DNA of 64,000 nucleotides, from contig JAEUVK010000066.1 in NCBI GenBank assembly GCA_016787135.1, forward strand, positions 1-64,000, given 5' to 3'. Positions 42,183 through 63,604 of this stretch are shown piece after piece (the first letter of the stretch is position 1; every line of letters begins with the position of its first letter). Below the pieces are notes generated by a model. That model was given only the letters and a program-made list of their open reading frames with translations, was not told where the DNA came from and ran no database searches. Source of the DNA: Chitinophagaceae bacterium. Its GTDB lineage: Bacteria > Bacteroidota > Bacteroidia > Chitinophagales > Chitinophagaceae. A program made the translations under genes and the position numbers.

Positions 42183-42194
42183 TCTTTAGGGTTT

Positions 42195-42205
42195 AAGCAA
42201 TCGTT
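42195..42205 (-). promoter_or_regulatory. AACGATTGCTT motif upstream of lacI2
   Basis: Exact 11-mer match on the minus strand, 12 bases before the ATG. Because the distance to the start codon differs from the susC1 copy, a DNA-binding role is easier to reconcile than a strict ribosome-site role. Confidence 0.5.
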
Positions 42206-42277
42206 CGTCAAAATAGGCTTTTTAAAGTTAATGCTTTTCTTTTTGGATTGAGTTGTTTTAAGCAGGATCCCTGCATG

Positions 42278-42310
42278 AAAAAAAAAGGCGTCGTAAAGAA
42301 TTACAACGCC
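42278..42310 (-). terminator. Intrinsic terminator of the haloperoxidase-like operon
   Basis: On the minus strand GGCGTTGTAA (42310-42301) pairs with TTACGACGCC (42296-42287), nine of ten positions, around a TTCT loop, followed by a run of nine T (42286-42278). It begins 26 bp after the stop codon at 42337. Confidence 0.8.
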
Positions 42311-42336
42311 GCGTTTATGCTTATAGTCTGAAATGT

Positions 42337-43884: not shown

Positions 43885-43885
43885 A

Positions 43886-44839: not shown

Positions 44840-44869
44840 AAACAGTTTTTGTTGATTGATGACACACTA

Positions 44870-46195: not shown

Positions 46196-46261
46196 ATTAA
46201 ATCAATTAATAAAATGAAAATAGTGAGTGAATGAAAGCGTTGACCGGTGACGATTTACTTT

Positions 46262-46816
46262 TCAGCATTCCGGCGGCTGATGGGGAGTGTTTGCTGCGAT
46301 TTTTGGCAGCAATGAGCTATTATGTGAAAAGATGTTTTTGTTAAACGAAGCAAACAAATGAGAGTGATAGGATTGATTATGGTCATCATAATCACTCAAT
46401 ATACTTTTGGAAAGCGGGCCAGGTGCCTTTTTTGATTGCCCTGAATGATCCATGTCCGCAGAGCTGTTAGCTTTTGCTATATCATTCTGAATAGATCTTA
46501 ATTGTTGTTTGGATTCATTAGGGATACATTTGAAAATTACGATATCCCCTTCTATTTTCTTTTTTACATATGTATAAGAAATACCGTCAATTTCTATTTG
46601 TCCGTAATGTCTTTCGTATTCAGTAAAACGCTGCTGGTAAGGCATGTTCAGCGCTACTTTTATTTCGATCAGTTGTGTTTCATCGTATTCATCATTGTCG
46701 AGGAGAGATTCCAGTTTGCGGTCTGCATGTTGCTGGAGCAAAGGAAACAGAAGCCTGTAACCGCCGAGGTTAAAGAATAATATAGCAATCAGCAATATGG
46801 CAGCAGTCTTTCTCAA
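46262..46816 (-). CDS. Hypothetical protein with N-terminal membrane anchor
   Basis: 184 residues. One hydrophobic N-terminal helix (KTAAILLIAILFFNLGGYRL), then a short alpha/beta segment (ESLLDNDEYDETQLIEIKVA; YGQIEIDGISYTYVKKKIEG) and a low-complexity, Ser/His-rich tail. I do not recognise the family. Its position upstream of the haloperoxidase-barrel-haloperoxidase genes on the same strand suggests it is the first gene of that unit. The tail holds several His residues that could bind metal, but spacing is irregular. Confidence 0.7.
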   Translation of the reverse strand: MRKTAAILLIAILFFNLGGYRLLFPLLQQHADRKLESLLDNDEYDETQLIEIKVALNMPYQQRFTEYERHYGQIEIDGISYTYVKKKIEGDIVIFKCIPNESKQQLRSIQNDIAKANSSADMDHSGQSKKAPGPLSKSILSDYDDHNQSYHSHLFASFNKNIFSHNSSLLPKIAANTPHQPPEC

Positions 46817-46895
46817 TCGTCAGCTTAGGGTCACAAGTTAACCTGATTATCTGAAAAACAAATATGACAGGCCAAAAATCCGGGAAGCTGCTTTG

Positions 46896-48935
46896 CTATT
46901 TATTCACTGCAAACGTTTTCTTCTCCGGCCCGGCGCCTGTAATAGTCAGTTTTTTCCAATGAGCTGGTAAAGCTGACTTTATTTGTATCAAACCCTTAGG
47001 TGTTATTTCAATACCACCAAATCCCATTAATATGCTTTGCAAAATACCCCCTGCTCCTGTGGCAAAGTAAGGATTGGTTCCTCCCCTGGTCTCTGCTATC
47101 ACCCGGAAGGGAGGATTAAGATTTGGCAGATAAGCATCCTTGAACCAGTGATATGCTTTTTCTCCATCGCCCAGTCTTGCATACAGCGTTGTAAAAACAG
47201 CCTGTGTCATAGCCGGAGTGCCTTCAATAGGTACTTTTGTTTCATAATACTCCAGATCTTTCCTGATCTGTTTCGGATCCGTTATTTCTTTTAGCGGATA
47301 GGCGAGCAGGTTCACATCGGCTTGTTTGATACCTTCTCCATTATAAGCAGCATGTTCTTTTGTTACTCCATCAGCAAATTTCAATATGGGAATATTATTG
47401 GCAACATTCATCCAGTCGCCATCAGGAGTAAGACCCAGCACTTTTGCTGCTTCGGTGGCAAATTGAAGATTCGCTTTTGCAGCCGCATTGGTGAAAGCGT
47501 TGTTATCGACATTCTCCGCCCATTCATCAGCCGCTACAACATTTTTTATGTCATATTTACCGGGCCCGTTTCTTTCCACCCTGCTTGTCCAGAAGTTGGC
47601 CGTTTCCGATAGTATCGGCCAACCTTTTTCTTTCAGCCAAGTTTTATCCTGTGTAACACAATAATAATTCCAGGCAGCAATGGCAACACATGCCGTAATG
47701 TGATGCTCAAACGGGCCACTCAATGCCCATACCGGTGTTTCTTCTACTCCTGTCTCAGCACTTTCCCATGGATACATCGCCCCTTTATATCCTTTGCTGA
47801 ATGCATTTCGTTTGGCAGCTTCTAATCTTTGAAACCGGTACTCGATCATACTCTTTGCCAGCTCAGGATGTAATACCAGTAGGGCAGGATACATCCACAA
47901 TTCTGTGTCCCAGAACACATGACCATTATATCCAAGCCCGCTTAATCCCATCGGCGAAGGAGATAAAGCGGTCCCTTCCCTGCTGAAGGAATATAAATGG
48001 TATAACATGCTGTGTACATCCTGCTGTGCCTGCAGATCTCCTTCAATCGTGATGTCGCTTTTCCATAGTTCATCCCATGCTTTTTTATGAAAGCTGATCA
48101 ATCTTTCCCGGCCTTCCAGTTTGGCAAAGATGGCCGAACGTTCCGCTTCGTTCAGCGGATCGTCGTGGTGTGCAGAAGTGATAGAAGATCCGGCAATGGA
48201 GAATCTGTATGTCTCCCCTGCATTGATCTTTCTGGTGAATTTCATCAGGTGCATATTATTATCCCACATTTCATGTATCACTCTTGGTTCTTGACCATGC
48301 TTTTCATTAAAAAGAAAGGTATTGGATGCGCACATCAGTAATTTACCGGCCGGACTTTTGGCTGATGATGTAAGCAAACTGATTACAACATGTGGCCTGT
48401 CTATTTCATTGTAGTAATTCTGTACATCCTTCAATGCGTCCGGGGCTTCCATTACACTGGCTCCGCTAATACTTATGTCTCTTTTAGCCGTGATCGTTAC
48501 GTCCATTAGTACTGTATAAGGAAGATGACGCAATGAATAGTAAGTGTAGCTGACCGAAGCTTTGTCGGTGTATTCAAATTTTGAAGTGAAATTAGCATAC
48601 CGCATGTCCAGTTCCTGCTGCATATCCTTTGCATCTCCACCGTTGATACGGTGGCCATCAACTTCCAGGTACATGTTCAGCAGGTTGAAACTTCTGAGGA
48701 AATTGCTGACCCGCCCTCTTCCATAAAGGTCATAGGCACCCGCCAGTACCACATCTTTGACTCTAAATGGTTCCGGTGAAGAGACAATCCCGATCATGCC
48801 GTTGGCTACCGTGATACCATAATACGCAGAGGGGTCGATAACAGGGGCAGAAATTTTCCATGGATCTGGTTGCGAGGCAGCAGCAAAAGAAAAAATGAAG
48901 CCGAGCAGTATTATTAGGAATCTTTGAGCAAGCAT
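46896..48935 (-). CDS. Secreted GH65 alpha-glucoside hydrolase
   Basis: 679 residues. Signal peptide MLAQRFLIILLGFIFSFAAA. GH65 marks: GHVFWDTELWMYPALLVLHP and the acid Glu471 in AADEWAENVDNNAFTN. The family includes maltose, trehalose and kojibiose phosphorylases and a few hydrolases. Here Glu615 lies in ETRGGTNPYFATGAGG, where phosphorylases carry a phosphate-binding His-Ser; a Glu general base there marks the hydrolase type, as in the kojibiose hydrolase of Flavobacterium johnsoniae (from memory, Glu472 and Glu616). Export also argues against a phosphorylase, since phosphorolysis belongs inside the cell. It is divergent from susC2 with 240 bp between, including one operator-like site. Confidence 0.88.
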   Translation of the reverse strand: MLAQRFLIILLGFIFSFAAASQPDPWKISAPVIDPSAYYGITVANGMIGIVSSPEPFRVKDVVLAGAYDLYGRGRVSNFLRSFNLLNMYLEVDGHRINGGDAKDMQQELDMRYANFTSKFEYTDKASVSYTYYSLRHLPYTVLMDVTITAKRDISISGASVMEAPDALKDVQNYYNEIDRPHVVISLLTSSAKSPAGKLLMCASNTFLFNEKHGQEPRVIHEMWDNNMHLMKFTRKINAGETYRFSIAGSSITSAHHDDPLNEAERSAIFAKLEGRERLISFHKKAWDELWKSDITIEGDLQAQQDVHSMLYHLYSFSREGTALSPSPMGLSGLGYNGHVFWDTELWMYPALLVLHPELAKSMIEYRFQRLEAAKRNAFSKGYKGAMYPWESAETGVEETPVWALSGPFEHHITACVAIAAWNYYCVTQDKTWLKEKGWPILSETANFWTSRVERNGPGKYDIKNVVAADEWAENVDNNAFTNAAAKANLQFATEAAKVLGLTPDGDWMNVANNIPILKFADGVTKEHAAYNGEGIKQADVNLLAYPLKEITDPKQIRKDLEYYETKVPIEGTPAMTQAVFTTLYARLGDGEKAYHWFKDAYLPNLNPPFRVIAETRGGTNPYFATGAGGILQSILMGFGGIEITPKGLIQIKSALPAHWKKLTITGAGPEKKTFAVNK

Positions 48936-49164: not shown

Positions 49165-49175
49165 AATGATTGCTT
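49165..49175 (+). promoter_or_regulatory. AATGATTGCTT motif abutting the susC2 start codon
   Basis: One base differs from the susC1 motif, at the C of the central CG. It ends at the base before ATG as in susC1. A partial copy ATTGCTTAA lies at 49151-49159. Confidence 0.45.
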
Positions 49176-52100
49176 ATGTCCTGCAAAAAAATGCTAAAGG
49201 CAAGCGTATTGTTTACCTTCCTTTTGCTCTCTCATCTTCTCTCTTATTCCCAAGACAAAGTGATTACCGGAAAAGTGACCGACTCCAAAGATGGATCAGG
49301 GCTTGCTGGTGTTACGGTTGTTCCGAAAGGAGGTACAGGTGGCACACAAACCGTTAATGATGGTTCTTACCGGCTCACGGTTGGGCCTTCCGTGACAGTA
49401 CTCATTTTTTCTTCCGTTGGCTTTGTGACCCAGGAGATCAATATTGCCGGAAGAACGTCAATTGATGTTTCGATGGCATTGAATAACACATCACTTGGTG
49501 AAGTGGTAGTGATTGGTTACGGAACAACCAGGAAAAAGGACCTGACAGGGTCGGTAACTGTTATTGGTGAAAAAGATTTCCAGAAAGGAAATATTACTAC
49601 ACCGGAACAACTTATTGCCGGAAGAGTAGCGGGTGTGCAAATTACATCCAATGGAGGTGCCCCGGGTGCCGGAAGTACAATACGTATCCGTGGCGGTGCT
49701 TCACTGAATGCGAGTAATGATCCGCTGATAGTAGTAGATGGTGTACCTGTCGATAATGGCGGTATTTCAGGTGCCGCGAATGCGCTGGCCCTGATCAATC
49801 CGAATGACATTGAATCCTTCAATGTGCTGAAAGATGCTTCCGCCACAGCCATCTACGGCGCCAGAGCTTCAAACGGGGTTATTATCATCACCACCAAAAA
49901 AGGAAGAAGCGGTAAACCTAAATTCAATTTCAATACGCAATTATCATTATCTACTTTGCCTAAAAAAGCAGATGTACTTTCTCCGACAGAGTTCAGGGCT
50001 TATGTAAATGCAAATGGTACACCCGCTCAAATTGGTTTGCTTGGCAGCGCCAACACAGATTGGCAGGATGCGATCTATGACAATGCGATTTCAACAGATA
50101 ATAACCTGAGTGTTTCCGGTGCTTATAAGAAAATTCCTTACAGGCTGTCCATTGGTTTTTTAAGCCAGGATGGAATCCTGATAACAGGGAATATGAAAAG
50201 AAAATCGGCTTCCCTTAACCTGAACCCAAAATTGTTCCAGGACCATCTGAGAATCGATTTCAATGTAAAAGGCTCTATCAATAATTCAAGGTTTGCGGAT
50301 GAAGGCGCTATCGGTAATGCGGTACGGTTTGATCCTACCAAGCCCGTAAAATCTTCAGATAAAAGGTATGGTGGCTATTTTGAATGGCTGGACCCGTCTT
50401 CAACGACCGGTTTGCGTGACCTGGCTCCGTTGAACCCGGTAGGCCTGTTGGAGCAAAGAACAGATAAAAGTGAAGTAAGAAGAAGTATCGGTAACATGAA
50501 GCTGGATTATAAGCTTCATTTCTTACCCGATCTTCATTTAGTGGTGAACCTCGGTTATGATATCTCCACCGGTGAAGGAACTGTTTATATCCCCGACAGT
50601 GCAGCTTCATCTTATCGCCGCTCTCCTGACGCTAAACACGGAGGCGTAGATAACAGGTACCTTCAGAAAAAGGCGAATACGCTGCTGGAGACTTATTTTA
50701 ATTATGTAAAGGACATTAAATCTATCAATAGCCGTATCGATTTTACCGGTGGATATACTTACCAGAAATTCATGACCCATGTAATCAACGCGGAGAAAGA
50801 CCCTAATGGTAAACTGTATCAGAAAGCCGATGGAACGCTTGATACGATACCCACAACCGGCCAACGCTATACGGGATTCAGTGATATGACGACCGACGGT
50901 TACATTATGTCATGGCCTACCAATCCATTTGACAAACCGAAGGCGTATCTGATCTCTCTGTTTGGCAGATTAAACTACTCTTTCAAAGATAAGTTCCTGC
51001 TTACCGGTACGATCCGTCGCGACGCATCTAGTAAATTCTCCGAAGACAACTGGATTGGCTGGTTCCCGTCCGCAGCATTTGCCTGGAAACTGAAACAGGA
51101 ATCATTTATGAGGAACTCCCGGGTGATAAGCGATCTGAAACTCAGGTTAGGCTATGGTATCACCGGTCAGCAGGATGGGATCGGGTATTATGATTATCTC
51201 GCCAGGTATTCCCAGGCTAACAACAGGGCGCAATACCAGTTTGGTAATACCTATTATCAGCCTTACCGTCCGGAAGGGTATAACGACCGCTTGAAATGGG
51301 AGGAAACAACTACTTATAATGCCGGTATCGATTTTGGATTTTTAAATAACAGAATCACCGGTAGCGTGGATGTTTACCTGAAGCAAACCAAGGATCTTCT
51401 TAGCGTGATAGATCAGCCGGCAGGTACTAATTTCTCCAATAAGATACTGGCCAATATTGGTACCATGGAAAACCGCGGTGTTGAGTTTACCCTTAACACA
51501 CAACCAGTCAACACTAAAAACGTAAGCTGGGATCTTGGTTTTAATATTACTTATAATAAGAATGAGATCACCAAGCTAACATTTACCAATGACCCGAATT
51601 TCCCGGGTAATCTGACGGGTGGTATAGCAGGTGGTGTGGGTAGCACTATCCAGATACATAGTGTAAGCTATCCCAAGAGCTCTTTCTATGTGTACAAACA
51701 GATCTATGATAAAGATGGCAGGCCTATTGAAGGATTGTTTGAAGATCTCGATCGTAACGGGCTGATCAACGTAGATGACCTGTATCGCTACAAGAGCCCT
51801 GACCCGACAGTTTTCCTCGGAGCTTATTCTACGGTTAACTATAAAAAGTGGTCAGCAGGATTCTCACTCCGGGCAAACATCAATAACTATATGTACAATA
51901 ACAGGTTCTCCAATACGGGTGTCAAAAGAAATATTATTGACCCGCTTGGATTCCTGGCCAATGGTTCAAGAAACCTGCTGGAAACCAATTTCACAGGCAA
52001 TGGCGATACTTACCTGTTGTCAGATTACTATATAGAGAACGCTTCTTTCCTCAGGATGGATAACATTAACATAGGATATAATGCCGGTGACCTGGTAAAA

Positions 52101-52253
52101 AAGAATACAAATCTGAGGATCGGGGTAAACGTACAGAACGCATTTACCGTTACGAAATATAAAGGAGTGGATCCGGAAGTTTCCGGTGGTATTGATAACA
52201 ACTTCTATCCACGTCCAAGAATATTCGTTCTCAGCCTGAATCTTGATTTCTAA
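49176..52253 (+). CDS. SusC/RagA family TonB-linked outer-membrane transporter 2
   Basis: 1025 residues from the ATG at 49176. Signal peptide ending about LLSYSQ. Carboxypeptidase-regulatory-like domain (ITGKVTDSKDGSGLAGVTVV), TonB-box region GEVVVIGYGTTRKKDLTGSV, plug (IRIRGGASLNASNDPLIVVD; NVLKDASATAIYGARASNGV) and barrel ending RPRIFVLSLNLDF. First gene of a susC-susD-susE-susF set. Its N-terminus resembles SusC1, suggesting common ancestry. The SusE/SusF-type partners and secreted GH13 downstream point to an alpha-glucan, while GH53 enzymes further on would suit galactan; the true cargo cannot be decided from sequence. Confidence 0.95.
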   Translation: MSCKKMLKASVLFTFLLLSHLLSYSQDKVITGKVTDSKDGSGLAGVTVVPKGGTGGTQTVNDGSYRLTVGPSVTVLIFSSVGFVTQEINIAGRTSIDVSMALNNTSLGEVVVIGYGTTRKKDLTGSVTVIGEKDFQKGNITTPEQLIAGRVAGVQITSNGGAPGAGSTIRIRGGASLNASNDPLIVVDGVPVDNGGISGAANALALINPNDIESFNVLKDASATAIYGARASNGVIIITTKKGRSGKPKFNFNTQLSLSTLPKKADVLSPTEFRAYVNANGTPAQIGLLGSANTDWQDAIYDNAISTDNNLSVSGAYKKIPYRLSIGFLSQDGILITGNMKRKSASLNLNPKLFQDHLRIDFNVKGSINNSRFADEGAIGNAVRFDPTKPVKSSDKRYGGYFEWLDPSSTTGLRDLAPLNPVGLLEQRTDKSEVRRSIGNMKLDYKLHFLPDLHLVVNLGYDISTGEGTVYIPDSAASSYRRSPDAKHGGVDNRYLQKKANTLLETYFNYVKDIKSINSRIDFTGGYTYQKFMTHVINAEKDPNGKLYQKADGTLDTIPTTGQRYTGFSDMTTDGYIMSWPTNPFDKPKAYLISLFGRLNYSFKDKFLLTGTIRRDASSKFSEDNWIGWFPSAAFAWKLKQESFMRNSRVISDLKLRLGYGITGQQDGIGYYDYLARYSQANNRAQYQFGNTYYQPYRPEGYNDRLKWEETTTYNAGIDFGFLNNRITGSVDVYLKQTKDLLSVIDQPAGTNFSNKILANIGTMENRGVEFTLNTQPVNTKNVSWDLGFNITYNKNEITKLTFTNDPNFPGNLTGGIAGGVGSTIQIHSVSYPKSSFYVYKQIYDKDGRPIEGLFEDLDRNGLINVDDLYRYKSPDPTVFLGAYSTVNYKKWSAGFSLRANINNYMYNNRFSNTGVKRNIIDPLGFLANGSRNLLETNFTGNGDTYLLSDYYIENASFLRMDNINIGYNAGDLVKKNTNLRIGVNVQNAFTVTKYKGVDPEVSGGIDNNFYPRPRIFVLSLNLDF

Positions 52254-52256
52254 AAA

Positions 52257-52267
52257 AATGATTGCTT
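52257..52267 (+). promoter_or_regulatory. AATGATTGCTT motif between susC2 and susD2
   Basis: The same 11-mer as before susC2, starting right after the susC2 stop and ending 14 bases before the susD2 ATG. An operator inside an operon would be unusual, so this copy keeps an RNA-level role open. Confidence 0.4.
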
Positions 52268-52281
52268 AAAATAATTGCAAC

Positions 52282-53916
52282 ATGAAAAAATTAATTTTTA
52301 ATAGTAGCGCCATCTTCGGCCTGGTTGCTTTACTGGCACTGTCATCCTGCTTAAAGCATCCGAATGAGTTGCCTACTAACGATGTAACATCTGAAACTGT
52401 TTATGCCACACCTGCAGGATACAAGCAAGTGCTGGCTAAAGTATATGGCAGTTTTGCATTGACAGGAAATTCCGGTCCTGCAGGTAACGGCGATGTACAG
52501 GGTATTGATGAAGGGTTCTCTGATTTCTACCGTTTGTTCTGGAAAGCGCAGGAATTAAGCACCGATGAAGCGGTGATCTCCTGGGGCGACGTAGGTATTC
52601 AGGATTTTCACAGGATGAACTGGACCTCTAATAATAGCTTCCTGACAGGTCTTTATTATCGCAGCATGTATCAAATCACGCTGTGTAATGAATTCATCAG
52701 ACAGGCCGCAGATGATAAGCTAAGCGCAAGAGGTATCAGCGGAGGTGAAGCAGATAACATCCGCCAGTATGCAAGAGAAGCAAGATTTCTCCGTGCTTTT
52801 CAATACTGGGTGCTGATGGATCTTTATGGCAACCCTCCTTTTGCAACAGAAACAACCACTATCGGTGGTGCACCTCCCCCACAAGCGAAGCGAAGCGAAA
52901 TTTTTACTTATATAGAAAGCGAGCTGAAAGCTCTCGAGACAAACCCAAACATGCCGGGCGCCAGAGCCAATGAATATGGCCGGGTAGATAAGGCAGCCGT
53001 CTGGGCTTTGCTCGCCCGCCTGTATCTTAATGCACAGGTGTATAACCAGGATCCTGTTACCGGTACTCCGGGACCGGAAAGATTTAGCGATGCGGCCACT
53101 TATGCTAAAAATGTGATCGATGCCGGTTATTCGCTTGTCACTAACTATCCCTGGCTAATGCGTGCCGATAATGACCTGAATAAAAGTGAATTTATTTTCA
53201 CTATTAATTATGATGGCTTAAGAACACAGGGCTATGGCGGTACAACATTCCTTTCACATGCATGCGTAGGTGGTTCAATGCCTGCTTCCACTTTTGGTAT
53301 AGCTGGCGGCTGGAGCGGAACCAGGACAACAAAAAATCTTCCAGCACTGTTTCCTGATGTGACCGGCACTGCTGATAAGAGAGCCCAATTCTATACAACA
53401 GGGCAAAGCCTGGAGATCGGTGATCTGACAGCGTTCATTGATGGATATGCCGTCACAAAATACCGGAATGTAAAAAGAGATGGATCGGCAGGATCAAGCC
53501 AGGATTTTTCTGATATCGATATGCCTTTGTTCCGTTTACCTGAAATGTATTTGATCTATGCAGAGTCAGTAATACGGAAGCCCGCAGCAGGCAATGCCGC
53601 TACAGCTTTGGGTTATATTAATAAAATGCGTGGCCGTGCTTATGCCAACGACCCTAACAGCACAGCAGGCAATATCAGTTCAGGAGAAATGACACTTGAT
53701 TTTATTCTTGATGAAAGAGCAAGAGAATTATACTGGGAAGGATTCCGTCGTACCGATCTTATCAGGTACAACAGGTTTACAGAAGGCGCTTATTTGTGGC
53801 CATGGAAAGGTGGTGTAAGCTCAGGAACCGGAGTGGCTTCTTATCGTAAGCTTTATCCTATTCCTTCCAGAGACCTGAACTCGAATACAAACCTTGTGCA
53901 AAACCCCGGTTATTAA
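52282..53916 (+). CDS. SusD/RagB family nutrient-binding lipoprotein 2
   Basis: 544 residues. Lipobox LSSC. SusD features: YAREARFLRAFQYWVLMDLY, ESELKALETNPNMPG, LDERARELYWEGFRRTDLIR and the ending LYPIPSRDLNSNTNLVQNPG plus Y. It lies 28 bp after susC2 and forms the surface-exposed binding lid of that transporter. It is only distantly similar to SusD1, so the two systems probably take up different glycans or different sizes of the same glycan. Confidence 0.95.
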   Translation: MKKLIFNSSAIFGLVALLALSSCLKHPNELPTNDVTSETVYATPAGYKQVLAKVYGSFALTGNSGPAGNGDVQGIDEGFSDFYRLFWKAQELSTDEAVISWGDVGIQDFHRMNWTSNNSFLTGLYYRSMYQITLCNEFIRQAADDKLSARGISGGEADNIRQYAREARFLRAFQYWVLMDLYGNPPFATETTTIGGAPPPQAKRSEIFTYIESELKALETNPNMPGARANEYGRVDKAAVWALLARLYLNAQVYNQDPVTGTPGPERFSDAATYAKNVIDAGYSLVTNYPWLMRADNDLNKSEFIFTINYDGLRTQGYGGTTFLSHACVGGSMPASTFGIAGGWSGTRTTKNLPALFPDVTGTADKRAQFYTTGQSLEIGDLTAFIDGYAVTKYRNVKRDGSAGSSQDFSDIDMPLFRLPEMYLIYAESVIRKPAAGNAATALGYINKMRGRAYANDPNSTAGNISSGEMTLDFILDERARELYWEGFRRTDLIRYNRFTEGAYLWPWKGGVSSGTGVASYRKLYPIPSRDLNSNTNLVQNPGY

Positions 53917-53939
53917 TATCACCAAATAATTTATTGTAT

Positions 53940-54788
53940 ATGAAAAATAGATTGCTTTTCATTTTCCCTGCGATGCTGCTGTTGTTGCTGACTGCATGCA
54001 CCAAGGATGAGAACAAAATATATTACGAGGAAGGCACTGCGCCTGTCCTCACGGCATCATCCACTACGCCGATGGTGCTGCTGAATGCCAATAAAAACAA
54101 TTTTGCCATCAAGTTCACCTGGACCAATCCTAATTACCGGTTCACCACTGGTATCAGCTCTCAGGATGTCACCTATACCTTACAAGTTGATACAGCCGGT
54201 AAGAATTTTACCAGCGCCGGCAAACAGGAAATGACGATCGCTAATGACAACGAAGTGTCGCTGACAGTAAAAGAACTGAATGGTTTTTTGTCAAAAATGG
54301 AACTGACAGCAGGCAGAGCGTATAATGTAGAAATAAGGATCAAATCAGCGCTGGTGAATAACAGCGTTCCGCTTTATTCTAATGTTATTAAGATCAATAT
54401 TACACCTTATCTCGATTTTGCCGTTGAACCTCCCGGCACTTCAGCTAATAACTATAATGACGGGAACTTGTGGGTCATTGGTGACTGCTTTGGTGCCCCC
54501 AATTGGACCAATCCGCTTCCTGCTCCACAAGACGTTAATCATAAGTTTACCAGGATAGATGTTCTGCACTATGAATTAACGATCAATTTTGTATCTGGTG
54601 GTGGCTATAAAATGATACAAACCCAGGGTGTATGGGGAACGCAATACCATGCGTTGGTAGCCAACACAGCCTTGTCAGGTGATTTCGAAAAAAGAGATGC
54701 TGATCCTCAGTTTGCATCGCCGGGTGCTGGCCGATACAAGATCGAAGTCAATTTCCAGACAGGTAAATACAAACTAACACCTCAATAA
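53940..54788 (+). CDS. SusE-type glycan-binding lipoprotein
   Basis: 283 residues from the ATG at 53940. Lipobox LTAC. Residues ~22-155 form the SusE N-terminal Ig/fibronectin-like domain (FKFTWTNPNYRF-type KFTWTNPNYRF; VTYTLQVDTAGKNF). Residues ~175-283 resemble a SusE/SusF C-terminal starch-binding domain (LWVIGDCFGAPNW; YKIEVNFQTGKYKLTPQ). It is a surface lipoprotein that holds the polysaccharide near SusCD. Family members bind starch in Bacteroides, but homologues elsewhere bind other glycans. Translation starts 23 bp after susD2. Confidence 0.88.
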   Translation: MKNRLLFIFPAMLLLLLTACTKDENKIYYEEGTAPVLTASSTTPMVLLNANKNNFAIKFTWTNPNYRFTTGISSQDVTYTLQVDTAGKNFTSAGKQEMTIANDNEVSLTVKELNGFLSKMELTAGRAYNVEIRIKSALVNNSVPLYSNVIKINITPYLDFAVEPPGTSANNYNDGNLWVIGDCFGAPNWTNPLPAPQDVNHKFTRIDVLHYELTINFVSGGGYKMIQTQGVWGTQYHALVANTALSGDFEKRDADPQFASPGAGRYKIEVNFQTGKYKLTPQ

Positions 54789-54807
54789 CCACATAAATCA
54801 GTCGGAT

Positions 54808-56571
54808 ATGAAAAATATTTTAAATACTATTATGCTGGCAGCTATCGGAGTAGTGATCTTCTCCGGCTGTCAAAAAGTGGCTGATTTGCCCTATTATGAG
54901 GATGGGAAGTCTGTCACGCTTTCTGCTTCCAAAACTGCTGTGACACCTGCGCTTGCTGACAGCACGTCTGAAGTCGTTAAGTTTACCTGGACGAGTCCGG
55001 AGTACGCTACGGATACGAGTACCTATAAATTCGTTCTTGAGATCGATTCTACCGGAAGGAATTTTTCCAAAAAGCTAACAAAGACCGTACACGGCAATTT
55101 GCAGACAGGATTAACAGGACGTGAATTGAACAATATACTCCTCAACTATGGTTTTACTCTTGGATCGCCCTATGAGGTAGATGTGAGAGTAGTGTCTTCA
55201 TACAGTAATAACAATGAGAAATATATTTCCAATGTGGTGAAGCTGTCTGTAACTCCTTTTAATGATCCGTCAAAACTGACGAGCACCCAAACCGCAGTTA
55301 CGCTGGCGCTGGCCACCGCTTCTCAGCTTTCCAATACGTTTAACTGGACAGCGTCATTTATCGGGTATAACGGAATTGTCACCTATACCTTACAATATGA
55401 TTCTGCTACCCGGAATTTTGCGAATCCAAAGGAAATGGCTGTAGGCGCATCTATATTGACCAAGGGGCTTACCCAGGGAGAAATGAATACAACTGCTTTG
55501 AATTCCGGCATACCTGGCGGTAATTCCGGCAAAGTAGAATACAGGATAAAATCCGTCACGGCACAGGGAGCAATTTCTTATTCGAATGTGGTTGCAGTAA
55601 CCATCCAAAGTTACCTGCCGATCTTAAGATTCTATTTACCGGGGGGGTACCAGGCCTCAACAGGTAATGGTAACGACTGGGATCCAGGAACTGCGCCAGA
55701 ACTGATCCGTGATCTTCGGTCACCCGTATTCAATGATATGTACTATATCTATATTTATTTACCTGCCGGTGCAGAGTTTAAAGTAACACAAGGCCGTGCA
55801 TGGGATGTGAACTATGGTGGTACTGGCGGAAACCTGGCACAAAATGGCGCCAATTTCACTGTAGCTACAGCTGGCGTTTACAGGGTGTCTATTAACCGTA
55901 CTACGCTGAAATATGACATCAGGGCCGGAAGAATGGGTTTTGTTGGCGGTGCAACAGGGGCCGACTGGACACCAGGTAATGTTTTCCCGAATTATGCTTT
56001 GGGCGCACCTGCAAATAATTTATTTGTCGGGCTTACCACTTTTACTACCGGTGGATGGAAACTTATTGACAATGACCAATGGAATAATGGTTCCAATGCA
56101 GTGGATGAAACCAGAAGCTATGGATCAACCGGCGGAAGCGGTAGCACGATGGAAGTAAATGGCGCTAATTTCCCTGACATCACAACTGCCGGAAGGTACA
56201 GGGTGATCTGGGATGGTCGTGATGTAAACAACATCAAGTATGAAATGAGTCCGGGTACGGAAATGAGAGTAGTAGGAAATGGCATACAGGGGATACCGGA
56301 TTGGGATCCTGCTTCATCACCTCAAATGACCTATAATGGTAACGGTGTCTGGACAGCGACCCTCACACTTGTTGCAGGAAAGGATATCAAGTTCCTTGCC
56401 GGCAATGCCTGGGGCGCATTTGACTATGAAGATAACAGTGGTGGCAGTACCGCTACCGGCACACCCAGAAAGATCAAGTGGGAAGGCGGCGATAATTTTA
56501 AAACACCTGCCGTGACCGGATCTTATACCATCACATTAAATGAGAATACACAAACTGTAACGATCAATTAA
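54808..56571 (+). CDS. SusF/SusE-type multidomain glycan-binding lipoprotein
   Basis: 587 residues. Lipobox FSGC. Two SusE-like fibronectin domains in tandem (~25-145, VKFTWTSPEYAT; ~150-270, TFNWTASFIGYNG) are followed by about three repeated beta-sandwich binding domains (~270-375, ~375-485, ~490-587) with Trp-rich sites (GVWTATLTLVAGKDIKFLAG; NAWGAFDYED). The layout matches SusF-like proteins, with an extra N-terminal fibronectin repeat. It would anchor glycan at the surface. An intrinsic terminator follows, ending the susCDEF operon. Confidence 0.88.
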   Translation: MKNILNTIMLAAIGVVIFSGCQKVADLPYYEDGKSVTLSASKTAVTPALADSTSEVVKFTWTSPEYATDTSTYKFVLEIDSTGRNFSKKLTKTVHGNLQTGLTGRELNNILLNYGFTLGSPYEVDVRVVSSYSNNNEKYISNVVKLSVTPFNDPSKLTSTQTAVTLALATASQLSNTFNWTASFIGYNGIVTYTLQYDSATRNFANPKEMAVGASILTKGLTQGEMNTTALNSGIPGGNSGKVEYRIKSVTAQGAISYSNVVAVTIQSYLPILRFYLPGGYQASTGNGNDWDPGTAPELIRDLRSPVFNDMYYIYIYLPAGAEFKVTQGRAWDVNYGGTGGNLAQNGANFTVATAGVYRVSINRTTLKYDIRAGRMGFVGGATGADWTPGNVFPNYALGAPANNLFVGLTTFTTGGWKLIDNDQWNNGSNAVDETRSYGSTGGSGSTMEVNGANFPDITTAGRYRVIWDGRDVNNIKYEMSPGTEMRVVGNGIQGIPDWDPASSPQMTYNGNGVWTATLTLVAGKDIKFLAGNAWGAFDYEDNSGGSTATGTPRKIKWEGGDNFKTPAVTGSYTITLNENTQTVTIN

Positions 56572-56600
56572 TAGAAAGCAGTTCTCTCTCTTTTTATTGC

Positions 56601-56637
56601 AAAAGACCGTCCCACCCACCAGGCAGGACGGTCTTTT
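56601..56637 (+). terminator. Intrinsic terminator after the susCDEF operon
   Basis: AAAAGACCGTCC (56601-56612) and GGACGGTCTTTT (56626-56637) are perfectly complementary over 12 bp with a 13-base loop; a T-rich tail follows. The GH13 gene starting at 56663 follows at once, so it needs read-through or a close promoter that I did not identify. Confidence 0.85.
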
Positions 56638-56662
56638 ATTTTTTAAACAAAAACCTTATAAA

Positions 56663-59032
56663 ATGAAACCTCAAATCAACCGCAGCAATCTGCGAAAAGC
56701 ACTGCTTTTTGCAGTATTCTTTTTTTCCCTTTCTCAGTCAAAGGCTCAGAACGATGTCATGATGCAGGCATTCTACTGGGATGTACCTGTGAACGCTAGT
56801 ACACTGAATGGTTCCTGGTGGGATACATTGACAGGTAAAATGCCGTCGCTTAAAAGTGCAGGATTTACAGGTCTGTGGGTCCCGCCACCATCCAAAGGAA
56901 ATTTTGGTATATATGATATGGGCTATGGCCTGTATGATCATTATGATCTTGGCAACTATAATCAGAAAGGAACAACAGAAACACGTTTTGGCTCAAGATC
57001 AGAATTGAACAGCATGCTTACAGCAGCTCACTCTACGACCGGGGGCGCTTCTTACATGAATATCTATGCTGATATTATTTTAAATCATATTTACACCGGC
57101 GAATCAGAATCGCAAAGCAATCCCGCGGTCAAGCAGTATGTATTTGATAAAGCATATCGCAACAGTACGCAATACCAGGCTTATCCCACCAATGAGATCA
57201 CCTGGGTCATTCCTAATGCAGCAGCCGGCGATTATTATATTCAAATAGCCGGATACTTACTGAACTATGGAGGAAATGTTACAGAAAGAGGGTACGATGT
57301 TTTTATTGACTGGACCGGCGCCTCCCCCAATGGCAGCCAATCATGGGAATCAGAACCTAATAACGGAGGCGGCCAGTTTAATACTTTCCCCGCTTCAGCC
57401 AGGACAGTAAGTGGTCATATGCAAAATTCAACCGACATAGATGAATATAAGATCACACTTAGCTCCGCACATGATATCGTAATTAAACTGGTAGCAAAGA
57501 AAGAAGGTACCAACGGTTCGGGTCAATGGGAATGGCAATGGGCAGCACAGGAAAACGGGTATTACCCGGTTGCAGTTTGGAAGAACGGATCGAACCTGGC
57601 AAGTACCACTTTGCAGGCGAGAACCAATACCAATGTTACTTATCCCAATCATACCGGAAGCGGCGAAGCCAATTATTCATGGACCTATACAGATTTTCAC
57701 CCGGTGGACAATAGTGACTGGCTTGGATTCCCGGGCTCTGACGAGATCATTACCAATACCAAATTTTTCGGCAATGACCTGAACACTTTCAGTACAACAG
57801 TCAAGACACGGCTGAAGAACTGGGGCTATTGGATGGCGAATACCGTCGGGTTTGACGGGTTTCGTCTTGACTTTGTCCGCGGCTTCCAGGAATCATTCGT
57901 AGCAGAATGGGTAAATAATCTTCCTCTGTTGAGCGGCAGCCAACGGTTCATTGTGGGTGAATACTGGGGCGCTGATTATCGCATTAAGAACTGGGTAAAT
58001 ACTGTTGCAACAAGCGGCGCCGATGTGGATGGTTTTGATTTTCCATTAAAGAACTCATTGAAAGATCTATGTAACGGCAATGGGTCTTCCTTTGATATGC
58101 GCTGGTTGAATCATGCAGGATTGGTAAGAAATAACGCCGGAAACAGTCTGCCCGGGACTTCCGTGGTTACATTTGCCGATAACCATGATACCGGAAAGGA
58201 ACACGATAAGTGGATCACCAAAGACCATAAGCTGGCTTATGCCTATATGCTTACCCATGAAGGAAGACCCTGTGTGTTTTATCCCCATTATTACGGCGTG
58301 ACACAGGTGGATGCACATAATAGTTATTATACTACTACAGCACCAGCCAGCCTGAGAACAGATATCAACAAACTGATACAGGTACGAAAAACATACTTAG
58401 GGGGTAGTTTAACCGTATTAAGCGAAACAGGTAATCCGTATCCATCTGCCGATGCGTACAGTGTATATATAGCCCGCAGACAAGGCAATGGTACGAAAGG
58501 CGGCGCCATTATCTGTATCAATAACCATGATTCAAATACAAAAGGTTTGTGGGTAGATGTTTCTCCTGCAGGGTATGAAAATCTTGCCGGCAAAACACTG
58601 GTCAATGCAATAAACGGGGTTGATTCGGTATATGTGTATCCTGATGGCAGAGCCTATTTTTCAGCACCACCCCGTGGTTATACCATATGGGTAAAGAAAA
58701 CAGACTATGTAGCGATTTCTGCAAGAATATCTGCGCAGGCCCCGCCTAAAATGAAAGAATTAGCTGCTATTCCGGCCGATGAAAATTTTTCCGTGTACCC
58801 CAACCCGGCCAATAGCCATGTCAGGGTCAATATATCGGTAAAAGAAAATAGTACTGCAAAAATCTATATGATCAATACAGCCGGGAACAAGATCAGTGAA
58901 TTGCATAACGGAAGGCTGGAAGGTAAAAACAGTTTTTTGTGGGATTGTTCAGCAGTTCCGGGAGGCATTTATTTTTGCGTAGTTAGTACGGGAAAAAGGA
59001 TCTACAGGAAAAAAATAATAGTATCAAAATAG
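56663..59032 (+). CDS. Secreted GH13 alpha-amylase with enlarged B region and T9SS tail
   Basis: 789 residues from the ATG at 56663; the longer frame would start before the terminator hairpin and is rejected. Signal peptide ending SQSKAQ at about residue 29. GH13 elements: MMQAFYWDVP, LWVPPPSKG, ADIILNH, nucleophile Asp403 (DGFRLDFVRG), acid/base Glu433 (FIVGEYWGAD) and Asp509 (FADNHDTGKE). Between barrel segments, residues ~165-345 contain an insertion of about 180 residues (ADGDYYIQIAGYLL-like GDYYIQIAGYLLNYGGNV; DEYKITLSSAHDIVIKLVAK), far larger than a usual B domain. The C-terminus (SVYPNPANSHVRVNIS ... GIYFCVVS) is a type IX secretion signal. It should cut internal alpha-1,4 bonds in starch at the surface. 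Confidence 0.92.
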   Translation: MKPQINRSNLRKALLFAVFFFSLSQSKAQNDVMMQAFYWDVPVNASTLNGSWWDTLTGKMPSLKSAGFTGLWVPPPSKGNFGIYDMGYGLYDHYDLGNYNQKGTTETRFGSRSELNSMLTAAHSTTGGASYMNIYADIILNHIYTGESESQSNPAVKQYVFDKAYRNSTQYQAYPTNEITWVIPNAAAGDYYIQIAGYLLNYGGNVTERGYDVFIDWTGASPNGSQSWESEPNNGGGQFNTFPASARTVSGHMQNSTDIDEYKITLSSAHDIVIKLVAKKEGTNGSGQWEWQWAAQENGYYPVAVWKNGSNLASTTLQARTNTNVTYPNHTGSGEANYSWTYTDFHPVDNSDWLGFPGSDEIITNTKFFGNDLNTFSTTVKTRLKNWGYWMANTVGFDGFRLDFVRGFQESFVAEWVNNLPLLSGSQRFIVGEYWGADYRIKNWVNTVATSGADVDGFDFPLKNSLKDLCNGNGSSFDMRWLNHAGLVRNNAGNSLPGTSVVTFADNHDTGKEHDKWITKDHKLAYAYMLTHEGRPCVFYPHYYGVTQVDAHNSYYTTTAPASLRTDINKLIQVRKTYLGGSLTVLSETGNPYPSADAYSVYIARRQGNGTKGGAIICINNHDSNTKGLWVDVSPAGYENLAGKTLVNAINGVDSVYVYPDGRAYFSAPPRGYTIWVKKTDYVAISARISAQAPPKMKELAAIPADENFSVYPNPANSHVRVNISVKENSTAKIYMINTAGNKISELHNGRLEGKNSFLWDCSAVPGGIYFCVVSTGKRIYRKKIIVSK

Positions 59033-59060
59033 AATGATGAGTGTATTTCATGTACTTTTT

Positions 59061-59086
59061 AGGTCATCCTCCGGGATGACCTTTTT
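59061..59086 (+). terminator. Intrinsic terminator after the secreted GH13 gene
   Basis: AGGTCATCC (59061-59069) pairs with GGATGACCT (59074-59082) around TCCG, followed by TTTT. It separates the amylase from the GH53 galactanase gene. Confidence 0.8.
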
Positions 59087-59111
59087 CAGCTCTTTATGAG
59101 TATATACATAT

Positions 59112-59119
59112 TACTTTTG
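59112..59119 (+). promoter_or_regulatory. TAnnTTTG box, candidate promoter for the GH53 genes
   Basis: TACTTTTG matches the -7 consensus and lies just after the GH13 terminator. The start codon is only five bases downstream, so any transcript from it would be leaderless or nearly so. No exact TTTG lies at 19-21 bp upstream. Confidence 0.4.
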
Positions 59120-59124
59120 CTTGT

Positions 59125-60153
59125 ATGAAAGCTTACATATTATTTATTACACTGTCTGCATCAGGTCTTTTTTTTACCTGTAAAAAGAAGAATGACCCTG
59201 CGCCGAACCCCACCCCGCCAGTTATTACCGGTTTTGCAAAAGGAGCTGATATAGGCTGGCTCACGGAAATGGAAGCTGCAGGAAGAAAATTCTATAATAC
59301 CAACGGGGTGCAATATGATTGCATATCGCTGCTTAAGGAACTTGGCATGAATACGATCCGGCTGAGGGTATGGGTCAATCCGGTCAATGGATGGAATGGC
59401 AGCGCTGATGTCATCAACAAAGCTGTGAGGGCAAAAAATGCAGGAATGCGGGTGATGATAGATTTTCATTACAGTGACACATGGGCTGACCCCGGCCACC
59501 AGGCAAAACCGGCGGCATGGGCCTCGCAGGATCTTGCCACACTCAAAACTTCTTTATATAATCATACACTTAATGTACTTACTGATCTTAAGAACAACGG
59601 TGTCACACCTGAATGGGTACAGGTGGGTAATGAAACCAATGATGGCATGTTATGGCCGGAAGGGAAGGCCTCTGCTAATATGGCCAACTTTACACAGCTG
59701 GTGAATGCAGGCTATGACGCAGTAAAGGCCGTTAGTACCTCCATAAAAGTGATCGTACATGTGTCCAATGGATTTGACAACAGTTTATTCCGTTGGTTGT
59801 TTGACGGGTTAAAAAATAATGGGGGTAAATGGGACGTGATCGGCATGTCCCTATATCCTTCTCCTTCTAACTGGTCCACGCTGAATTCCCAGTGTTTGAC
59901 CAATATGAATGATATGATCAGTCGTTATGGGAAAGAGGTAATGGTGGTGGAAGTGGGAATGAGCTGGGATCAGCCTGCAGCGTGCAATTCTTTTATAGCT
60001 GATATTATTGCTAAAACAAAGTCGGTAGCAAATGATAAGGGCCTGGGAGTTTTATATTGGGAGCCGGAAGCCTATAATAACTGGCAGGGATATACTTTAG
60101 GGGCTTTTGATAATGCAGGCAAACCAACTGCTGCTTTGAATGCATTTAATTAG
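59125..60153 (+). CDS. GH53 endo-beta-1,4-galactanase, lipoprotein
   Basis: 342 residues. Lipobox FFTC (cysteine about residue 19), so it is anchored in a membrane. The GH53 TIM barrel covers ~35-342: GADIGWLTEMEAAGRKFYN, TIRLRVWVNP, MIDFHYSDTWADPG, acid/base Glu in QVGNETNDGMLWPEG and nucleophile Glu in VMVVEVGMSW. Known GH53 enzymes cut beta-1,4-galactan side chains of pectin (arabinogalactan type I) into galacto-oligosaccharides. A second GH53 domain is fused to GH2 in the next gene, 43 bp downstream; the pair would degrade galactan to galactose. Confidence 0.93.
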   Translation: MKAYILFITLSASGLFFTCKKKNDPAPNPTPPVITGFAKGADIGWLTEMEAAGRKFYNTNGVQYDCISLLKELGMNTIRLRVWVNPVNGWNGSADVINKAVRAKNAGMRVMIDFHYSDTWADPGHQAKPAAWASQDLATLKTSLYNHTLNVLTDLKNNGVTPEWVQVGNETNDGMLWPEGKASANMANFTQLVNAGYDAVKAVSTSIKVIVHVSNGFDNSLFRWLFDGLKNNGGKWDVIGMSLYPSPSNWSTLNSQCLTNMNDMISRYGKEVMVVEVGMSWDQPAACNSFIADIIAKTKSVANDKGLGVLYWEPEAYNNWQGYTLGAFDNAGKPTAALNAFN

Positions 60154-60196
60154 ACTATTGAACAAGGGCCTCTCTTTTACCATAACAACTTCTTAT

Positions 60197-63100
60197 ATGA
60201 AACGCATACCTGTATTTTTCCTGCTGGTGATTATGATCCCGCTTATTTCTTCTGCCCAGCGACAGAAAATAAACTTTGACAACGACTGGAGGTTTCATTT
60301 TGGCCATGCTGCTGATCCTGAAAAGGATTTCAATTACAGTATAGCAACCATATTTTCAAAGTCCGGCGGTGCGGCCAATACAGCGATTGACCTGCGATTT
60401 AAAGATAGCGCCTGGAAAAGGCTGAACCTCCCTCACGACTGGGCTGTTGAACTTCCTTTTGTAAATGTGAATAACCGCGATGTTGAATCGCATGGATACA
60501 AGCCGGTCGGCGGTTTGTTTCCTGAAACAAGCATCGGGTGGTACCGGAAACATTTCACTATAGCGAGGGCTGATTCGGGACAGCGATTTCAGATACAGTT
60601 TGACGGCATATTCCGGGATGCAAATATCTGGGTGAACGGATTTTACCTTGGCAACAATAAAAGTGGCTATGTTGGTATAGCCTGTGACATTACTGATTAT
60701 ATCAATTTTGACAGGGATAATGTAGTGGTGGTAAGAGCAGATGCCACGCAATATGAAGGATGGTTTTATGAAGGTGCCGGTATCTATCGCCATGTATGGC
60801 TGAATAAATATGACAATGTGCATATCGCTCATGATGGGGTATTTGCCTGGTCTGCTATCAACAGTAATAAAGCGGTCGTTAACGTAGAAACAACAGTAGA
60901 AAATCAATCACTCTTATCATCGTCCTGCGTAGTGTCAGCCTATATCACAAGCAGGGAGGGGAAAGTGCTGGCAAAGGCAAAAGATCAACCCCTTACTTTA
61001 AACATCAACAAATCGGCTACTACCGTCAGCAATATTTCCATGGTCAATTTCAGGGAATGGTCTCTGGAAGATCCTTACCTGTACAGGGTAGTGGTGGAAG
61101 TAAGATCAGGCGGCAGGATGGTTGACAGGCAGGTGATGCGTTATGGGATCCGGCAGGTAGAAATAAAAACCAATGGAGTATTTCTTAATGGCAAACATAT
61201 AAAACTGTTGGGTGTCAACTGTCACCAGGATCATGCAGGAGTCGGCAGCGCCCTGCCCGATTATTTGCAATACTATCGCATTGATCTTTTAAAGAACTTT
61301 GGTGTGAATGCTTATCGTACCAGTCATAATGCCCCTACACCGGAATTGCTGGATGCCTGCGATAGCCTGGGAATGCTGGTAATGGATGAGCAACGTTTAC
61401 TGAACAGCGGCCCGGAATATATGAACCAGTTTGAAAGATTGGTAAAACGTGACCGCAGCAGGGCCTGTGTCTTTATGTGGTCTATCGGTAATGAAGAAGG
61501 ATGGATACATACTACCACTTTCGGCAAAAGAATAGCACAAACATTCATTGCCAAACAAAAAGAACTGGACCCTACAAGAACGTGTACCTATGCGGCCGAT
61601 CTGGCGAATGTTTATAAAGGGGTCAATGAAGTGATCCCGGTAAGAAGCTTCAATTACCGTCATTTTGGTGTGGCTGATTATCATCGTGATCATCCGGAAC
61701 AGCCGATCATTGGTACAGAGATGGGAAGCACGGTGACAACAAGAGGTATTTATGAAAAAGATACAATAAGAGGATATGTACCCGACCAGGACATCACAGC
61801 GCCTTGGTGGGCCAGCAAAGCAGAAGACTGGTGGACATTAGCAGCAGTAAATGATTTCTGGCTCGGGGGTTTTGTATGGACCGGGCTGGATTATCGCGGA
61901 GAACCTACGCCTTATTCCTGGCCGAATATCAATTCGCATTTCGGCATCATGGATATGTGCGGTTTCCCGAAGAACATCTATTACTATTATCAAAGCTGGT
62001 GGACGGATAAAGATGTATTGCATATCTCCCCGCACTGGAACTGGAGAGGCAAACAGGCAGGATGGAATAAAAAAGTGGGTGACCCGGTAGATGTATGGGT
62101 CAATACCAATGCGGATAATGTGGAACTTTTCCTGAACGGGAAAAGCCTTGGCAAAAAAGATATGCCACGTAATAGCCACCTGCAATGGACCGTTAATTAT
62201 GAACCGGGAAAATTAGAAGCAGTAGCCTATAAGAAAGGGAAGAGGCTGACAGCGAAAGTGGAAACAACCGGGGCGCCTGTTGAGGTGGTCGTGACACCGT
62301 ATAAAACAACGATACTTGCTGATGGAAAGGATGCCACCGTCATTAATATCAGCGTAGTGGACCGGGAAGGCCGTGAAGTACCGGATGCGGATAACCTGAT
62401 CAGGTTTTCTGTCTCGGGTGATGGAAAGATCATCGGAGCAGGGAATGGTGATCCCAGCAGTCATGAACCGGATAAATGTGCTGATGGAGCCTGGCAAAGA
62501 ACTTTGTTCAATGGCAAATGCCAGGTGATCATACAGGCAGGTACAAAACCGGACATGATAAAGTTTGAAGCAAAGGCAACAGGGTTATGGTCAGGTGGTA
62601 CGGATATTCAAACCATCTCTCCTGAAAGTGTTGCTGCTATTACTATTGACAAAAATTACCAGTTACCTGTTTCAACAACAAGGAAGGAAGTAGATAAAAT
62701 GATCGGGGCCGATATTTCCTTTTTACCCGAGCTGGAAGCAAGAGGAATGAAGTTCTCTGATAATGGTACAGAGAAAGATGCGATTCAGATACTAAAAGAT
62801 CATGGCTTTAATTATGTACGGTTGCGCATATTCAATGACCCGGCAAGGGATAGCGGCTATTCTCCCGGTAAAGGTTTTTGCGACCTGGCCAATACCAAAA
62901 AGATGGCAAAGAGGGTGAAAGAGACGGGTATGAAGTTGTTGCTTGATTTTCACTACAGCGATTACTGGGCAGATCCGGGTAAACAGTACAAACCTGCTGC
63001 ATGGCGTGGATTGTCATTTGAGGAGTTGAAGAAAGCCGTCTATGATTATACCAAGCAGGTGATGACAGAATTAAAAGCGCAGGGAACCACGCCGGATATG

Positions 63101-63604
63101 GTGCAGATCGGCAACGAGATCAACCATGGTATTATCTGGCCCGAAGGAAATGTAAGCAACCTGGATGGGCTGGCACAATTGATCAATGCAGGTACGGCTG
63201 CAGTAAAATCGGTTGATCCGTCCGTTACCATGATGCTGCATGTGGCACTGGGCGGGCAAAATGATGAATCGGTCTTTTTTATTGATAATATGGTCGCAAG
63301 AGGGGTGTACTTCGATGTGATCGGCGAATCGTATTATCCTAAATGGCACGGCACACTGGATGACCTGCGGGATAATCTCAATGACCTGGTAAGACGATAT
63401 GGCAAAGATGTGATCGTGGTGGAGTATTCAGCATTGAAGAATGAGGTAAATAAGATCGCTTTTGAAGTGGAGGGTGGTAAGGGTAAAGGCACTTGTATCT
63501 GGGAGCCATTAAGTACATGGGAAAAGGTGTTTGATAATAACGGCAAGTCCAATGACCTGATCAAACTCTATGATGAGATCAGTAAAATGTACTTAGGTAA
63601 ATAA
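60197..63604 (+). CDS. GH2 beta-galactosidase fused to a GH53 galactanase domain
   Basis: 1135 residues from the ATG at 60197. Signal peptide ending about LISSAQ (residue 21). Residues ~25-310 are the GH2 sugar-binding and immunoglobulin-like domains. The GH2 catalytic barrel spans ~315-610 with acid/base Glu433 (MWSIGNEEGW) and nucleophile Glu508 (IIGTEMGSTV). A DUF4982-like and an Ig-like region follow to about 830 (DPVDVWVNTNADNVELFLNG; TTILADGKDATVINISVVDR). Residues ~836-1135 are a nearly complete GH53 barrel: GADISFLPELEARG, LLLDFHYSDYWADPG, acid/base in QIGNEINHGIIWPEG and nucleophile in VIVVEYSAL. One polypeptide could thus cut galactan internally and release galactose. Confidence 0.9.
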   Translation: MKRIPVFFLLVIMIPLISSAQRQKINFDNDWRFHFGHAADPEKDFNYSIATIFSKSGGAANTAIDLRFKDSAWKRLNLPHDWAVELPFVNVNNRDVESHGYKPVGGLFPETSIGWYRKHFTIARADSGQRFQIQFDGIFRDANIWVNGFYLGNNKSGYVGIACDITDYINFDRDNVVVVRADATQYEGWFYEGAGIYRHVWLNKYDNVHIAHDGVFAWSAINSNKAVVNVETTVENQSLLSSSCVVSAYITSREGKVLAKAKDQPLTLNINKSATTVSNISMVNFREWSLEDPYLYRVVVEVRSGGRMVDRQVMRYGIRQVEIKTNGVFLNGKHIKLLGVNCHQDHAGVGSALPDYLQYYRIDLLKNFGVNAYRTSHNAPTPELLDACDSLGMLVMDEQRLLNSGPEYMNQFERLVKRDRSRACVFMWSIGNEEGWIHTTTFGKRIAQTFIAKQKELDPTRTCTYAADLANVYKGVNEVIPVRSFNYRHFGVADYHRDHPEQPIIGTEMGSTVTTRGIYEKDTIRGYVPDQDITAPWWASKAEDWWTLAAVNDFWLGGFVWTGLDYRGEPTPYSWPNINSHFGIMDMCGFPKNIYYYYQSWWTDKDVLHISPHWNWRGKQAGWNKKVGDPVDVWVNTNADNVELFLNGKSLGKKDMPRNSHLQWTVNYEPGKLEAVAYKKGKRLTAKVETTGAPVEVVVTPYKTTILADGKDATVINISVVDREGREVPDADNLIRFSVSGDGKIIGAGNGDPSSHEPDKCADGAWQRTLFNGKCQVIIQAGTKPDMIKFEAKATGLWSGGTDIQTISPESVAAITIDKNYQLPVSTTRKEVDKMIGADISFLPELEARGMKFSDNGTEKDAIQILKDHGFNYVRLRIFNDPARDSGYSPGKGFCDLANTKKMAKRVKETGMKLLLDFHYSDYWADPGKQYKPAAWRGLSFEELKKAVYDYTKQVMTELKAQGTTPDMVQIGNEINHGIIWPEGNVSNLDGLAQLINAGTAAVKSVDPSVTMMLHVALGGQNDESVFFIDNMVARGVYFDVIGESYYPKWHGTLDDLRDNLNDLVRRYGKDVIVVEYSALKNEVNKIAFEVEGGKGKGTCIWEPLSTWEKVFDNNGKSNDLIKLYDEISKMYLGK

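Follow-up and report, generated by a model that had tools for sequence, protein, structure and literature searches.

The window analysed here is 64,000 nucleotides of contig JAEUVK010000066.1 from a Chitinophagaceae bacterium (assembly GCA_016787135.1). Seven of its genes, all on the forward strand, follow one another in the order SusC, SusD, SusE, SusE with an X25 domain, GH13, GH53 lipoprotein and GH2-GH53 fusion (Table 1). A SusC-SusD pair and degrading enzymes are thereby gathered in one same-strand cluster (49170-63604), which is the composition of a polysaccharide utilisation locus. The start of the fusion gene was placed at the ATG at 60197, judged the best choice, with a second in-frame ATG lying upstream at 60140; its stop codon ends at 63604. 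A neighbouring part of the window (36349-48935) holds an alpha-glucoside cluster with GH13, trehalase, an MFS transporter, a LacI regulator and a GH65 kojibiose hydrolase, among which lie two PAP2/vanadium-haloperoxidase-like genes.

Table 1. Genes of the locus, and parts and predicted catalytic residues of the fusion protein (positions in the window).
Feature	Coordinates	Strand	Evidence
SusC-like TonB-dependent transporter	49170..52253	+	Pfam; in 25 of 80 loci
SusD-like glycan-binding protein	52282..53916	+	Pfam; in 27 of 80 loci
SusE-like protein	53934..54788	+	Pfam
SusE-like protein with X25 domain	54808..56571	+	Pfam; relatives occur in many loci
GH13 alpha-amylase-like protein with type IX sorting tail, outside the conserved operon	56666..59032	+	Pfam, NCBIfam
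Separate GH53, BtGal subtype, putative lipoprotein (N-terminal cysteine)	59125..60153	+	Pfam 343 bits
GH2-GH53 fusion gene	60197..63604	+	Single open frame, 1135 aa; full-length in 70 of 394 family genomes
Signal peptide MKRIPVFFLLVIMIPLISSA	60197..60256	+	Signal-peptidase-I type, without lipobox; by eye and pattern
GH2 beta-galactosidase half, residues 21-808	60257..62620	+	Pfam, NCBIfam GalA 1026 bits, VIA-align Z 33
E433, predicted GH2 acid/base (SIGNEEG)	61493..61495	+	Aligned to GNE motif of solved GH2 enzymes
E508, predicted GH2 nucleophile (GTEMGST)	61718..61720	+	Aligns with GSE in solved GH2 enzymes
Linker, residues 809-832	62621..62692	+	Poorly conserved; dN/dS 0.15
GH53 beta-1,4-galactanase half, residues 833-1135, trimmed subtype	62693..63601	+	PF07745 315 bits
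E974, predicted GH53 acid/base, strand 4 (GNEIN)	63116..63118	+	Invariant also in wider GH53 alignment
E1076, predicted GH53 nucleophile, strand 7 (VVEYS)	63422..63424	+	Aligned to BlGal E263

The first-pass annotation had described one chain in which GH2 is followed by GH53, and the Pfam and NCBIfam domains confirmed this order within a single frame. Pfam finds GH2_N, GH2, GH2_C, DUF4982 and GH2_C5 across the first ~800 residues and then GH53, the architecture of the GH2 half being jelly roll, Ig, TIM barrel, DUF4982 and GH2_C5. Residues 28-799 match GalA (NF041462), an NCBIfam family of GH2 proteins with DUF4982 and GH2_C5, above its curated cut-off (1026 against 900 bits), and the model reaches no further than the start of the linker before GH53. 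In the C-terminal 300 residues, where a GH53 domain was to be sought, PF07745 matches residues 836-1078 (315 bits, E 8e-94; cut-off 24) and covers the profile no further than position 245 of 340. A truncated barrel, which this early stop could mean, was ruled out: in the alignment the strand-7 nucleophile motif VVEYS and then the strand-8 WEP motif are present beyond the Pfam match, joined by short loops, and the predicted fold spans the barrel. In a full-chain AlphaFold2 model (pLDDT 80, pTM 0.81), residues 833-1131 matched each of the ten listed GH53 structures at Z scores of 34.3-36.3, best of all 7osk (Z 36.3, rmsd 1.8 Å, 294 residues). When the GH53 domain was modelled alone (pLDDT 94.4), Z rose to 35.1-37.4 against the ten GH53 entries, the next family following at Z 23. 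The predicted structure of the GH2 half matched BuGH2A and Bacillus circulans beta-galactosidase (Z 33).

Both pairs of catalytic glutamates noted initially were recovered (E433/E508 and E974/E1076), and all four columns are invariant across 65 aligned fusions, namely the window protein and 64 others at 64 to 84% identity to it. The position mutated in 2gft, the nucleophile mutant E263A of the Bacillus licheniformis galactanase, aligns to E1076. Nei-Gojobori comparison of the window with L033, a relative 95% identical in the fusion, gave the lowest dN/dS values in the two enzyme halves (0.026 in GH2, 0.038 in GH53) and higher ones in the linker (0.15) and the signal peptide (0.76); the ratios of 0.03-0.04 indicate strong purifying selection on each half. 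Judging from its invariant catalytic residues, the selection acting on it and its predicted GH53 fold, the GH53 half is probably active, as had been supposed. Related GH2 enzymes without a GH53 half, at identities of up to 71%, would fit a GH53 half that is mainly a binding or scaffold module for GH2, without significant catalysis, yet with both of its catalytic glutamates invariant in the 65 fusions and a dN/dS of 0.038 we regard such a role as highly improbable.

The fused GH53 belongs to a subtype with trimmed loops. Aligned with the most similar other Bacteroidota GH53s it is without loop 7, which is long in those enzymes and follows strand 7 (~34 residues missing), and loop 8, after strand 8, is shortened; the core motifs WADP, GNE, SYYP and WEP are all retained, and in the nucleophile motif ET has become EY. 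In characterised galactanases loop 7 joins loop 8 through a calcium site or a disulphide (PMC8447715). No stabilising interaction of this kind was found in the fused type, loop 7 being absent throughout the subtype. BtGal is an exception of the same sort, with a significantly shorter loop 7 and no loop 7-loop 8 interaction, and the feature is therefore common, not defining (PMC8447715). The closest solved GH53s by sequence are IaGal from Ignisphaera aggregans (7osk, nearest, 232 bits by phmmer) and BlGal, IaGal ranking first by fold too; compared with these two, loop 7, which carries the calcium site, and the greater part of loop 8 are missing from the fused half.

The IaGal loop around W338, which was engineered so that a -4 subsite was added or the -3 subsite removed, determines product length, and enzymes without a -3 subsite break down galactotriose (PMC8447715). 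Lying close to the C-terminal end of the barrel, that engineered loop may be taken as loop 8. With loop 7 deleted and loop 8 short, we infer that the fused GH53 would prefer short oligosaccharides over the polymer, and it is probably an oligosaccharide trimmer more than a second polymer cutter. A larger departure, in which the GH53 half is catalytically altered and no endo-galactanase at all, acting instead on very short oligosaccharides, in exo fashion, by transglycosylation or on another beta-galactoside, appears rather unlikely to us. It could draw on the loss of loop 7 (~34 residues) and the short loop 8 in fused and unfused members alike, on the change from ET to EY, on the Pfam match ending at 245 of 340 and on the standing of the subtype as a clade of its own apart from the surface GH53s; the catalytic and core motifs are nevertheless kept, and BtGal, also short in loop 7 (PMC8447715), is yet active on potato galactan (PMC5238430).

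A phylogeny of GH53 domains places the fused type in one clade (SH-aLRT 100) with 41 fused members, 4 standalone, 2 with only GH2_C5 before GH53 and 1 split gene. The separate GH53 upstream in the window falls in a different clade, so that two subtypes meet at the locus; its nearest solved structure is that from B. thetaiotaomicron (6gp5, 309 bits by phmmer). Near the 6 relatives with a fused-type GH53 but without a GH2 catalytic part, no GH2 gene was found, and some of them adjoin housekeeping genes; the role of the fused-type GH53 is therefore not tied to the beta-galactosidase. Nor was fusion the cause of the loop trimming, which the unfused members share. Two of these proteins (L111:9479-10927 and L165:5607-7121) have only a GH2_C5 Ig-like domain, and no GH2 catalytic part, in front of GH53. 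The neighbourhoods of unfused members include DprA (by L112:9668-10951 and L163:6185-7471) and LigD (by L111 and L165), without SusC/D. Elsewhere in the data, the separate GH53 of L089, recorded under the name Cellulophaga sp. BC115SP, is joined to Flectobacillus genes by a branch of zero length, and the record may be misnamed.

The additional GH53 lipoprotein that had been reported just upstream of the fusion was found there, with its N-terminal cysteine. Such a cysteine is present in all 41 adjacent separate GH53s (23 fitted a strict lipobox pattern and the other 18 were recognised by eye); by contrast, 67 of the 69 non-redundant fusions are without a lipobox-like motif and carry a non-lipoprotein signal peptide, all these calls being made by signal-peptide pattern and by eye in place of a dedicated predictor. 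Pfam finds no type IX sorting domain in the fusion. This split in the lipobox pattern, together with the missing sorting domain, suggests that the fusion is periplasmic and the separate GH53 a surface lipoprotein. The chain, at first called secreted, is thus most likely periplasmic instead.

A full-length fused frame is present in 70 of 394 sampled genomes of the same family (Chitinophagaceae), none with an internal stop; the count was taken by hand from a table, and 3 of the 70 are short by up to ~10% at one end. The same domain order, which was to be sought in protein databases, occurs in further Bacteroidota loci as well. A scan of bacteria and archaea with one genome per species returned, among the best 80 loci, named lineages that are all Bacteroidota (among them Chitinophagaceae, Saprospiraceae, Cyclobacteriaceae, Flectobacillaceae, Sphingobacteriaceae and Flavobacteriaceae). 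Many carriers are soil and water Bacteroidota, and isolates carrying the fusion include Flavihumibacter stibioxidans, Flavisolibacter nicotianae and Arcicella rosea. Fusion and domain order persist over an identity range of 62-95%. The window genome is fragmented (227 contigs), which might raise the thought of an assembly chimera, a chance joining or a stop codon overlooked in a single metagenome bin; all this is excluded, the same frame being found in the 95% relative on a separate MAG contig, in the 70 family genomes and in isolates.

As to the history of the fusion, GH2-only relatives, which reach the 71% identity given above, lie mostly outside the fused group in the GH2 tree, with a few inside it. 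Since they occur both outside and within that group, it is likely that fusion took place and that some fusions were afterwards lost or split, and we claim no exact number of events. At L118:4313-7842 and L102:3062-6359 two overlapping frames take the place of the single fused one, by a true split or a frameshift.

Beyond the main lineage, sequence comparison shows at least one further, independent origin of a GH2-GH53 fusion. Genome G733, from another family, encodes a GH2-GH53 protein of 1166 aa. Its GH2 is nearest GalB (873 bits, just short of the 900 required), and its GH53 half belongs to the BtGal type, unlike that of the main lineage. In the sister genomes G911 and G939 the same GH2 and GH53 genes are adjacent and separate, their GH53s being 89 and 80% identical to the G733 domain. 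G883 and G785, of the same genus as G733, are also fused, and with a GH53 domain only ~58% identical to that of G733 they may represent a further separate event. In the locus collection, the independent fusion of a GalB-like GH2 and a BtGal-like GH53 was seen at L167:5402-8899, L172 and L173, the genes being adjacent in sister genomes. A triple fusion, GH2-GH53-esterase, was observed at L105:7577-11872 and L104:3-3137 (Puia and another Chitinophagaceae MAG). The C-terminal esterase-like domain of the complete triple fusion comes closest, among NCBIfam descriptions, to pectin acetylesterase, scoring below its cut-off, and in L049 and L081 the fusion gene is directly followed by separate genes for relatives of the L105/L104 domain at 67% identity. 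The G733-type fusion with its separate sister genes and the esterase case together show that joining of neighbouring genes is recurrent in these operons.

Such recurrence, the persistence of GH2-only relatives and the one split pair of frames (L118) would agree with a neutral joining of adjacent co-transcribed genes, which fixed equal expression without catalytic coupling. We give this reading, which is compatible with the one we prefer, somewhat less than even weight, as the fusion has been kept over 62-95% identity with conserved domain order. A more general proposal is offered tentatively: galactan operons of Bacteroidota may repeatedly condense into single chains, GH2 with GH53 at least twice (with different subtypes) and in one lineage with an esterase added, and the loop-trimmed periplasmic GH53 of the main lineage would feed the GH2 active site of the same molecule.

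The genes around the fusion were compared over the 80 best loci, in which some contigs are too short to show SusC/D or GH53. A BtGal-type GH53 lies upstream of the fusion in 32 of the 80, at a median distance of 87 bases. The order SusC-SusD-SusE-GH53-fusion recurs, the fusion often being the last gene of the operon, and there are many fusion loci with SusC/D or the separate GH53 absent nearby. A galactokinase is found near the fusion in 11 loci, a sodium:solute symporter in 15 and either of them in 19, one or both sometimes coming after the fusion; the galactokinase of the window genome is on another contig. The GH13 gene, which in the window stands between the SusE and GH53 genes, is missing at this place in the 95% relative L033 and therefore looks like a lineage-specific insertion into a galactan operon. 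A starch locus, as GH13 and X25 might imply, was rejected as the conserved role, GH13 being missing in L033 and most loci whereas GH53 and the fusion recur. Two further neighbours were noted. An 866-aa protein near the fusion in 10 loci (L062:4940-7537) has a weak GH5/cellulase match without a clear solved relative and may represent a group of clan GH-A glycoside hydrolases not described before; a 246-aa protein that follows the fusion in 9 loci (L043:14098-14835) has no Pfam or NCBIfam match.

We consider it likely that the fusion is a periplasmic enzyme with two activities and belongs to a locus for beta-1,4-galactan utilisation, in which galactan is taken to galactose. The upstream GH53 lipoprotein would cut galactan at the cell surface and SusC/SusD would carry the fragments into the periplasm, where the GH53 half of the fusion would shorten the imported galacto-oligosaccharides and the GH2 half would take galactose off their non-reducing ends. 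Galactose would then be taken up, in some relatives probably through the adjacent sodium:solute symporter, for which it is a candidate substrate, and be phosphorylated by galactokinase. For the GH2 half, the assignment is to the GalA family, linkage specificity being beyond what a sequence can tell. The coupling of internal cutting to galactose release that the first annotation had envisaged is a reasonable reading of the fusion, and might bring a kinetic benefit. The nearest known system is the galactan locus BT4667-BT4673 of B. thetaiotaomicron, with GH2, GH53 (BT4668/BtGal) and SusC/D/E, which shares the enzyme families, the transport proteins and the expected substrate. There, however, GH53 and GH2 are separate genes, as are SusC/D/E (PMC5238430); in the window the fused GH53 is of the other subtype, and it is the upstream GH53 that resembles BtGal.

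Fusions of two glycoside hydrolases are known as a class of protein. Like them, the window protein has two catalytic domains that would act in sequence on one glycan, but the GH2-GH53 pairing specifically is not described in the open-licence papers searched; CAZy may list such modular proteins. The statement that GH53 is normally a single-domain enzyme holds only in part, given the modular architectures among solved GH53s and several Bacteroidota relatives. The fusion is real and conserved, and it is a new pairing of two familiar enzyme families, not a new kind of system. It offers a natural, conserved test case of two sequential pectin-galactan activities, as predicted, in one protein, for which the unfused relatives of each half serve as natural controls. 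The usual label of GH53 as an extracellular endo-galactanase, these results suggest, misses a widespread, loop-trimmed subtype that is probably periplasmic. With the fusion, a single enzyme could be enough to turn galactan oligosaccharides into galactose.
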